Assembly (NCBI RefSeq): GCF_963677155.1
Contig: NZ_OY781884.1
Span: 2,903,501 to 2,967,500, forward strand
Direction of reading: 5' to 3'
Length of the DNA: 64,000 nt
DNA from: an uncultured Draconibacterium sp.
Lineage (GTDB): Bacteria > Bacteroidota > Bacteroidia > Bacteroidales > Prolixibacteraceae
A program made the translations under genes and the position numbers. Under the pieces are notes generated by a model. It was not told the origin of the DNA and made no database searches. It worked only from the letters and a program-made list of their open reading frames with translations. Shown piece by piece: positions 11,227 to 48,076 of the stretch. Numbering within the stretch: the stretch's first letter is position 1; each line of letters begins with the position of its first letter.

Positions 11227-11314
11227 AATACGAATAGGCTCTTGTTTTAGGATTCAATGCTCAATTTTTTTACAAGCAGTAAATCACATTTCTAAAAAGA
11301 TGTTGTTTAGTTAT

Positions 11315-40561: not shown

Positions 40562-40593
40562 TTGACATAAGTCAAATAATGTCGTAACTTATG
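40562..40593. promoter_or_regulatory. FNR-like palindrome upstream of the 159-aa protein gene
   Basis: TTGACATAAGTCAA (40562-40575) is a perfect TTGAC-N4-GTCAA palindrome of the same geometry as FNR sites (TTGAT-N4-ATCAA). A second inverted repeat overlaps it: CATAAGT at 40566 and ACTTATG at 40587. It lies 141 bases before the gene and 163 bases from the divergent response regulator. Confidence 0.45.
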
Positions 40594-40733
40594 TGTGGAT
40601 TCTTTCTGTCCCCGGCATTAAAATCCAATACAAGGAAAGCCGAAAACCTTTAAAATTAACCGGACCTGCGGGTGTTGGATGGGTGAGACACCCTCAAGCA
40701 CGTCCTGATTTTTACACAAAAAAACCACGTAAA

Positions 40734-41213
40734 ATGACAGACAAATTTTCTTTTAAATTAAGCGAAGAGGAGAAAAGCGATGTTAATAACGCGATTCAGA
40801 CCCTGGTATCGATTCTCGAATCAAAGTTGATAACCCTTACGCCCGAAGAGCGTATGGAGATGCCCAAAATGGGTGATAAAACAGTGGCTTTTGTTGAAAA
40901 GGCCATTGAATATGCGCAGGAATATCCGCAATATATGCCTGCATTTATTGATGTGCCGGAAACGGAACTCGATTTTAATGCGGTAAAAGATATTCGGGTA
41001 ATCTTTAATCAGTTGCAACGATTAACTTCGGAGCTGAACGATAGTATGATTTTGGCCGGAAGCGAGGCCTACAGCTCTACTTTATCGGTTTATAAAGTAT
41101 TAAAGAATGCCGCCGATATGGGGCAGCCCGGTGCCGAAAATGCTGCCCGCGAACTGGCCAGCCGTTTCCCGCGAGGTAAGCGCACTACTTCGGCCACAGC
41201 CAAAACGGAATAA
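40734..41213 (+). CDS. Uncharacterised helical protein (159 aa)
   Basis: I do not recognise the family. From the ATG at 40734 (MTDKFSFKLSEEEKSDV) the protein is acidic, almost entirely helical by composition, without Cys, signal peptide or membrane helix, and ends in a basic, Thr/Ser-rich tail. The frame is open upstream to 40593, but that part is unlike coding sequence. Its TAA stop codon is the first unit of the 21-bp periodic tract that follows, which suggests the tract grew from, or is tied to, this gene's end. Confidence 0.8.
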   Translation: MTDKFSFKLSEEEKSDVNNAIQTLVSILESKLITLTPEERMEMPKMGDKTVAFVEKAIEYAQEYPQYMPAFIDVPETELDFNAVKDIRVIFNQLQRLTSELNDSMILAGSEAYSSTLSVYKVLKNAADMGQPGAENAARELASRFPRGKRTTSATAKTE

Positions 41214-41441
41214 AAAGCAAGCCCGTTTTTGCTCTGAACTGCGTTATGCTGGCTAAAAGTGCCGATTGTTTTGTTAAAAGCCAGCTAATTCCGGCTAATC
41301 GGAAGAATAAGCTGGCTAAAAGCGAGGACATTTAAGCTTTAAGGGAGGATTTTCTACCTCGAAGCAAGAACTTTTTAGGTAAAAGCCAGGAATTTCTGGC
41401 AAAAAGGGAGCTCGTTCCGGCAAAAAACCAGGTGAACGAGG
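41211..41441 (+). repeat. Degenerate tandem repeat with exact 21-bp period
   Basis: Eleven units start at 41211 and then every 21 bases to 41421 (41232, 41253, 41274, 41295, 41316, 41337, 41358, 41379, 41400, 41421). The core resembles CTAAAAGC (examples: taaaaagc, ctaaaagt, ttaaaagc, ctaatcgg, ctaaaagc, ctttaagg, ctcgaagc, gtaaaagc, caaaaagg, caaaaaac); the second unit is the weakest. The register is kept without indels although the units have diverged. It is not CRISPR-like, since there are no spacers. See findings. Confidence 0.8.
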
Positions 41442-41521
41442 GGTTTTGCTCCATTAAGCGGGTTAAATGTGAAACCGATAAGATAATTGCCCGGCAGCTC
41501 TCTGCTTATTATCATACTTAA
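41246..41521 (+). pseudogene. Possible decayed heptapeptide-repeat ORF
   Basis: Read in the frame beginning at the ATG at 41246, the 21-bp tract gives seven-residue units built around LAKSxxF (LAKSADC, LAKSEDI, LGKSQEF, LAKRELV). A TAA at 41333-41335 interrupts it; after this stop the frame stays open to the TAA at 41519-41521. The frame is different from that of the preceding gene. There is no promoter or other sign of expression; it may equally be non-coding DNA. Confidence 0.35.
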
Positions 41522-47547: not shown

Positions 47548-47580
47548 AAGGCAAAAGGCAAAAGTAGAAAGGCAAAAGGA
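47548..47580 (+). repeat. AAGGCAAAAG repeat cluster
   Basis: Three near-identical copies of AAGGCAAAAG within 33 bases, directly after the yicC stop codon. Confidence 0.6.
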
Positions 47581-47601
47581 AGAAGAGCAAAGTAAACTCA
47601 A

Positions 47602-47960
47602 ATGGAAAATAACCTTCAAAAAAGAATCGTTGAATTTGTTACTGAAGTAATACTTTCCTGCGGACTTTGCCGGATACGCAAGAATATAAAGTAATAAAGT
47701 ACCAATTAATCAAAGCGGCATCGTCTACCTGCGCCAATTACGAAGAAGCGCAGGCTGCATCGTCAAAAGCTGATTTTACCTACAAAACGGAAATTTCGTT
47801 AAAAGAAATGAGGGAAAGTAATTGTTGGTTGAGGTTAATTCGATCGATTAGCAAAAACTTGAATTCTGACGGTGAAAAATTGAGCTACTTAATCAAGGAA
47901 TCAGAAGAATTAAAGTTGATTTTAGGAAGTATTGTTTCAAAAACCAAAAGGGACAAATAA
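47602..47960 (+). pseudogene. Frameshifted four-helix-bundle protein (23S rRNA intervening-sequence-protein family)
   Basis: The ATG at 47602 opens MENNLQKRIVEFVTEVIL and then ends early. Without the frame change the protein continues from about 47658 as LRTLPDTQEYKVIKYQLIKA to the stop at 47960, which is the family's conserved sequence (about 120 aa in all). A single missing T near 47655-47658 (CTTTCC for expected CTTTTCC) explains the break. Homologues occur as free-standing genes or inside 23S rRNA. This copy is flanked by AAGGCAAAAG repeats on both sides, which suggests insertion into the yicC-gmk block. A sequencing error cannot be excluded. Confidence 0.75.
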
Positions 47961-47998
47961 GCATACTCAATTTTTCTCCCTTTTTACTTTTCAGTCCT

Positions 47999-48050
47999 AC
48001 TTTTGCCTTTTTACCTGAAACTTTTTCCTTGAAAAACTTACTTTTGCCTT
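47999..48050 (-). repeat. AAGGCAAAAGT cluster, reverse orientation
   Basis: Two reverse copies (ACTTTTGCCTT at 47999 and 48040), each preceded by T to give TACTTTTG, which also fits the -7 promoter consensus on the plus strand. The cluster lies 27 bases before gmk. Confidence 0.55.
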
Positions 48051-48076
48051 TTTACTTTAAACTTTTTACTTGAATA

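Follow-up and report, generated by a model that had tools for sequence, protein, structure and literature searches.

A gene for a 159-aa protein (P0001; positions 40734..41213, forward strand) in the genome of an uncultured Draconibacterium sp. is followed by a row of nine dyad sites repeated every 21 bp (41246..41434, assigned to neither strand), within the 64-kb stretch of contig NZ_OY781884.1 that was analyzed as a whole and is referred to here as the window. Taken together, the row of sites and the gene suggest a gene-plus-binding-array module not described before. The array, its symmetry, a motif shared among its relatives and its linkage to one gene family are established by sequence comparison, from which we infer that the sites are bound by a protein. 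The array is probably an iteron-like element acting in cis, which the encoded helical protein would bind as phased dimers; the full proposal, a two-part module whose array is recognized by a symmetric protein, presumably its own 159-aa product, and serves a local purpose, is one that we hold to be evenly balanced.

A 21-bp array downstream of the 159-aa gene

The original prediction described positions 41211-41521 as an exact 21-bp tract of eleven units, beginning on the stop codon of the gene and containing no indels. The register itself is real, as autocorrelation reached 0.407, 0.461 and 0.468 at lags 21, 42 and 63 (z 5.7, 7.3 and 7.5), compared with about 0.255 in shuffled sequence, and none of 2000 dinucleotide shuffles attained the observed value at any of these lags. 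Among lags up to 69 the runner-up was lag 43 (z 2.4), while lags 20 and 22 gave 0.313 and 0.304. The tract is unique of its kind in the window, with a score of 0.52, the runner-up at period 21 (0.403) being located at 11265. Counted from 41251, nine units are well supported and free of indels; the two starting from the stop codon and those past about 41441 are weak, and for this reason the count of eleven was generous. The array was delimited by autocorrelation, unit count, palindromy and motif-array score, and its dyad centres lie at 41256, 41277, 41298, 41319, 41340, 41361, 41382, 41403 and 41424 (41256+21k). The nearest relative (L012, protein 92% identical) carries the same array with exactly one extra 21-bp unit and is otherwise indel-free, and the array length of L013 (protein 78% identical) is also off by 21 columns in the alignment.

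Occurrence of the array across the gene family

Homologues of P0001 were found in 25 of 101 relatives, plus 79 loci in other genomes, which by record title are mostly Bacteroidota, together with Spirochaetota, Verrucomicrobiota and some metagenome bins otherwise labelled (labels that may be wrong). The original prediction had proposed looking for the tract after the gene in relatives, and there it was found: with one criterion applied to family and control segments alike, 52 of the 74 family loci having at least 900 bp of downstream sequence passed the period threshold, versus one of 127 control windows (L088). Likewise, in a first set of relatives, 19 of 30 loci scored at least 0.48 at period 21 within 1.5 kb, compared with none of nine other loci of the own genome. 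The 52 include L070, whose real period is 16; this locus was kept in the unit, palindromy, covariation and stop-codon counts, and was left out of the analyses of similarity versus identity, of the shared motif and of the 65 loci mentioned below.

In the second set, the best period in the 900 bp downstream of the gene was 21 in 45 loci, 22 in four and 16 in one, so that some members of the family carry, at the corresponding position, arrays with a period of 22 bp. Over 900 bp upstream it was 21 in three loci, 22 in one and 16 in one, and the control window, available in 69 loci, yielded period 18 in one. The three upstream cases of period 21 correspond to L041-L043, where the first gene of a tandem pair lies upstream. 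Downstream of position 6489 in L041, after the second gene of the pair, a 7-bp-like repeat (TGACCAA) stands where the usual motif would be expected.

Across the family, arrays start at a median of 110 bp past the stop codon and have roughly 7-17 sites, the unit counts starting at seven by construction. In 29 of 53 loci the first 110 bp after the stop codon contain a terminator-like hairpin, versus 1.4 expected from mononucleotide shuffles, and the array is placed after a terminator in about half of the relatives. The window is negative in this regard: in its spacer between stop codon and array (41214..41245, forward strand) no intrinsic terminator was recognized, at a place where many relatives have one.

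The tract does not encode a peptide repeat

One forward frame of the tract reads as LAKSxxF-like heptads with a single stop inside the array, and the decay of a heptapeptide-repeat gene was one of the two origins proposed at the outset. The heptads are present in that frame, but as a by-product of the 21-bp DNA period. Stop codons are not depleted over 55 arrays (1070, versus 1060.5 in shuffles, sd 18.2), 18 of which have no open frame at all, and because of this, and because some relatives use 22 bp, the tract is not a broken peptide repeat. The dyad symmetry of the units and a shared palindrome centred on the dyad also contradict a coding remnant, to which we assign a negligible probability. 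The phased A-rich cores pointed out in the original prediction represent one variant and not a general trait, given that the units of GC-rich relatives (L109, for instance) are rich in G/C.

Dyad symmetry and a shared motif

Unit consensus sequences exceeded their column-permuted versions in palindromy (mean z 2.7), and in 31 of the 55 arrays no more than 2 of 200 nulls reached the observed value. For the window's own array, z was 2.19 (6 of 200 nulls), and the orthologous arrays of L012 and L013 were each matched by 1 of 200. Covariation within units was absent, with 3146 Watson-Crick pairs versus 3124.7 expected (z 1.05; 0.36 without L070 and -0.28 without near-duplicates). A palindrome without compensatory change argues for double-stranded DNA read by a symmetric protein, and not for RNA hairpins, which would show compensation and were rejected on the absence of covariation. 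The data point instead to arms that drift independently around a symmetric target, as expected of a dimer site.

In type III toxin-antitoxin systems, structured RNA repeats precede the toxin gene. Repeats acting here in a similar style, as an RNA that partners or inhibits the protein, might be proposed on the grounds that a small gene adjoins a tandem repeat whose units could fold into short hairpins. We regard this as very unlikely, since the repeats of the 159-aa family come after the gene and not before it, compensatory changes are lacking, the terminator-like site precedes the array in the 29 loci already mentioned, and no Rfam match over the gathering score was obtained in the 14 loci searched.

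When 41 arrays (the 55 minus eight near-duplicates, L070 and five 22-bp arrays) were aligned solely on the base-centred dyad, a common pattern was obtained, TTSNANCTNWNAGNTNSAA, with a strength of 1.382 versus 0.125 (sd 0.029) in nulls whose axis was chosen likewise, none of 200 reaching it. Common descent may be part of this shared pattern, which is itself conservation; the unit sequences turn over between arrays while the dyad motif stays common. In a held-out test, 22 loci displayed a median score of 1.77 versus -0.27 in 37 controls, with 14 above every control (p 3e-5), and the signal was specific to period 21, as the held-out medians at periods 17-20 and 22-25 ranged from -0.4 to 0.29. 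A motif-array scan of the window gave a sole hit of at least 2, at 41288 (score 8.26).

By adding this motif test to the period threshold and dropping L070, an array was identified in 65 of the 74 loci, the weakest being uncertain. Five of the 14 loci gained in this way lie above 3.02, the best motif-array score in 536 kb of far flanks, and nine lie below it; the low-scoring ones are uncertain because a score of 1.56 was obtained, over 3.7 kb, at an empty site (L125).

The array follows the gene family

Strong arrays of this motif were found only beside the gene family, both in a 1.2-Mb sample of the own genome and in the far flanks. The own-genome sample contained one strong motif array (7.99), adjoining a family paralogue (L151), and all others scored at most 2.36. 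Array similarity was 0.90 for pairs with protein identity above 85%, 0.76 at 70-85%, 0.64 at 45-70% and 0.60 below; that is, it tracks protein identity down to about 70% and is close to background under some 45%. The closest cross-genome array pairs, reaching 0.9-1.0, come from close protein relatives.

Gain and loss could be followed at the orthologous site, which lies between what we take to be a response regulator gene and mnmA. Gene and array are present in L121 and L126, a decayed gene without an array in L122, other sequence in L123, and the presumed mnmA is directly next in four relatives (L125, L128, L129 and L130). The segment past the array (41435..41521, forward strand), conserved in alignments with L012 and L013, is represented in L124 and L127, two genomes without gene and array, by a right-hand remnant alone, as seen by eye. 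In L122, L124 and L127, neither gene nor array survives intact, the best motif scores being 0.36-0.73. In another genome, gene and array were copied together: its two copies, L074 and L076, share 97% identity along a 1.5-kb segment and have unrelated flanks. Because the sites share with the protein their inheritance, duplication and loss, the encoded protein is the most probable binder. Of the two origins first proposed, the phased protein-binding tract is the one favored by the comparisons, given the dyad symmetry without compensatory change, the constant two-turn spacing and the linkage to one gene family.

The L074/L076 copies with their unrelated flanks, as well as presence, decay and absence at one orthologous site, could also be expected if the array were a recombination or transposition end and the module were moved by an enzyme acting in trans. 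We consider this improbable. The homology between L074 and L076 runs on past the array on the right side, and no terminal inverted repeat or target duplication was recognized by eye at either copy. Furthermore, the recurrent neighbours within 6 kb of the 79 loci consist of the family itself (68 loci), one 14-locus cluster and clusters of at most six loci, with no recurrent transposase-like gene as far as these clusters, not all of which were identified, reveal. A search for the empty site of the duplicate returned the locus itself and repeats on one side, and the locus itself alone on the other. An attC or integron cassette identity was rejected, as the end motif was at chance level and the own genome had no integron integrase hit over the TIGR02249 cut-off.

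The encoded protein and its upstream region

P0001 is predicted to be all-helical and acidic, with a short basic C-terminal tail, and belongs to a family without assigned function. Its AlphaFold2 model (pLDDT 89.7, pTM 0.71) is all helix. No Pfam match was found for P0001, nor any NCBIfam match for 29 family members; the best weak matches were a PHROG of unknown function (E 0.004) and designed helical proteins (E 0.0008), and Foldseek with the P0001 model gave no PDB match better than E 1.8. The family is without a convincing family or fold match. The comparison with known defence genes returned three families with one member each (best E 0.004). A phage or plasmid origin was rejected, since the paralogue in L037, used as query, matched no phage and a single plasmid record (32.5% identity); in addition, no relative was found in viral contigs searched with alignment A2.

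The 5' leader of the gene (40590..40733, forward strand) is conserved in the ten relatives looked at and contains a possible ACCC...GGGT stem, for which alignment and RNAalifold of 10 sequences gave 8 pairs, 3 of them with changes on both sides. At about 40496, a place from the forward scan that is assigned to neither strand, lies a site resembling the array units, which beats 24 of 25 control segments.

Identity of the binder and drift of the arrays

Several observations weigh against the proposed module. With a median pI of 5.2 across the family, the protein, which ends in the short basic tail, is acidic, and no DNA-binding domain or structural match was recognized in Pfam, NCBIfam, PDB or Foldseek. 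Upstream of the gene, tract-like sites showed no enrichment across 50 loci, with a mean rank of 0.52 and nine ranks of 0.1 or lower, five being expected; the window's own upstream candidate is one of the nine low ranks (0.04), and despite this, autoregulation through promoter sites was rejected on the lack of family-wide enrichment. No array was recognizable in nine of the 74 loci, three of which are second genes of tandem pairs (L042-L044). For proteins less than 60% identical, the likeness of the arrays scarcely tracks that of the proteins (rho 0.06), and common descent alone can give the trend at higher protein identity. Five same-genome array pairs (0.52-0.78, median 0.73) resemble each other slightly more than the cross-genome median of 0.665 (n=148) would indicate. 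The held-out loci are related to the training loci, the pairs L074/L076 and L114/L117 share one genome each, and just five of the 14 held-out positives exceed the best far-flank score. Finally, in the Marinifilum pair L089/L091 the array is 0.70-0.83 identical per window, versus 0.94-0.98 for the gene and 0.95 at four-fold sites.

The acidity of the protein, its lack of a recognized DNA-binding domain and the slightly greater likeness of same-genome array pairs would also fit a nucleoid or regulatory host protein, encoded elsewhere, that binds the array as phased dimers, with the 159-aa protein acting on the complex or not at all. A precedent is BvgA~P, for which the portion of PMC7250471 drawn on here describes dimers, arranged head to head, that follow one another at 22-bp steps along a single helix face over degenerate sites. 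We deem a host binder unlikely, if a serious contender: the own-genome sample contained no strong array of the motif away from the gene family, the closest arrays belong to close protein relatives in other genomes, and a second gene family in this genome is accompanied by a 21-bp tract of another, non-palindromic kind.

The strong divergence of the units, the whole-unit gains and losses that occur between relatives' arrays and the fast divergence of the Marinifilum pair are what a functionless, decaying minisatellite would display, as other short tandem repeats do. We give this explanation little credence, however, because period, place and motif are the same in distant relatives, and the seven pairwise alignments covering the array show internal gaps of single 21 columns or none (an eighth, L059/L064, did not reach a common array). 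Moreover, arrays are more conserved than four-fold sites in Flavobacterium (array windows 0.84-0.96 versus four-fold identity 0.71-0.82) and in L073/L088 (0.94 versus 0.70).

Other 21-bp tracts in the same genome

Seven places of the own-genome sample pass 0.46 at period 21. Apart from the family paralogue with its tract (L151), these comprise a non-palindromic tract directly 5' of the gene for a 215-aa helical protein (L141:10608-11590), a palindromic tract about 100 bp upstream of a 201-aa gene (L152:18678-19546), and a tract with a score of 0.743 (L150:1105-1290) near a transposase-like gene that we take to be IS3-like; no helical gene was recognized beside the latter, which is perhaps an orphaned array. 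Two further places (L189:9113 and L196:2523) look like 42-bp repeats of two alternating 21-bp halves, and the remaining one (L162) lies inside coding sequence. Within the window, 47548-48074 holds short tandem repeats of 7, 14 and 41 bp, unrelated to the 21-bp array.

The 215-aa gene has homologues in 23 of 101 relatives, and a 21-bp tract is present on either side in 19 of 30 fetched loci. No relationship to the 159-aa family was detectable (hhalign probability 0.3%), and none of its 18 tested tracts was palindromic at the 2/200 threshold. For the 201-aa gene, matches were found in four of 101 genomes, including the own one, with 21-bp tracts in four of five homologue loci; two of these four tracts were palindromic at the same threshold, and a third stood at 4/200. 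As the tracts of the 215-aa family are non-palindromic, symmetry follows the adjoining gene family and not the host, the period itself being common. Tentatively, and with somewhat less than even confidence, we propose that such modules form a class of their own, widespread in chromosomes and not described so far, each consisting of a lone gene for a small helical protein and its own array of sites spaced by two helical turns. At least two unrelated families, perhaps three, would have converged on 21 bp with different symmetry, protein and sites would change together, and the array would constitute a self-recognition platform assembling a filament on one face of the DNA.

Proposed organization of the module

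In the module that we propose for the 159-aa family, each site would be an imperfect palindrome of the form TTSNANCTNWNAGNTNSAA in double-stranded DNA, and the 21-bp spacing, equal to two helical turns, would align all sites along a single face of the DNA. A two-fold symmetric protein occupying adjacent sites could then lie side by side in a continuous nucleoprotein stretch, much as the excerpts drawn on here describe for BvgA~P every 22 bp (PMC7250471) and for the pSM19035 ParB on contiguous 7-bp repeats (PMC9499535). The candidate binder is the neighbouring 159-aa helical protein, presumably a dimer with its basic tail on the DNA. The module would make its own binding platform at its own locus, in the manner of plasmid iterons and centromere repeats, and its purpose would be local rather than genome-wide regulation; maintenance, titration and silencing of the module all fit.

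If this proposal is true, a further family of probable DNA readers comes into view, one that has no convincing fold match and whose array is seen in genomes assigned by record title to several phyla. It would also imply that a rule based on a period of two helical turns finds such modules without sequence similarity, and that nature offers here a series of protein and site variants in which DNA specificity changes under a fixed architecture.

Comparison with known systems

Titles and abstract openings of the literature on 21-bp intergenic repeats do not describe such a gene-linked array. The BrickBuilt element of Porphyromonas gingivalis, of which the consulted part of PMC4596501 reports 19 elements in one genome with a leader, a tail and a 23-nt unit, also consists of tandem repeats between genes, with units of similar length, in a member of the Bacteroidota; it differs in its 23-bp unit, compared with 21 bp here, and no link to a particular gene family is described in that part. 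No small inverted-repeat ends of the leader and tail type were seen by eye at the ends of L074/L076. The BvgA~P arrays, in the same excerpt as above, differ from the present ones in being located at promoters and bound by a response regulator. In parS of pSM19035, according to the portion of PMC9499535 considered, 7-10 consecutive 7-bp repeats are bound by a ribbon-helix-helix protein and contiguity matters. That array and the present one are both made of contiguous repeats, with a small-dimer reader that is known there and presumed here; unlike parS, the sites studied here are 21-bp palindromes after the gene, not in its promoter, and the protein has no ribbon-helix-helix match. No recurring neighbour of the partition motor-protein type was recognized within 6 kb of the 79 loci, whose neighbour clusters were not all identified.

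Plasmid iterons offer a further comparison, as their control arrays sit downstream of rep genes, for instance F incC, P1 incA and the 22-bp iterons of R6K. P0001 does not resemble a winged-helix Rep initiator, having no Pfam or NCBIfam match and no Rep chain among its PDB matches. The array corresponds to the iteron pattern of 17-22 bp direct repeats in helical phase (period 21, nine units), and in both systems tandem repeats of about two helical turns adjoin the gene of the presumed binder; what sets the present array apart from plasmid iterons is that it is chromosomal and that its units are palindromic and strongly diverged.
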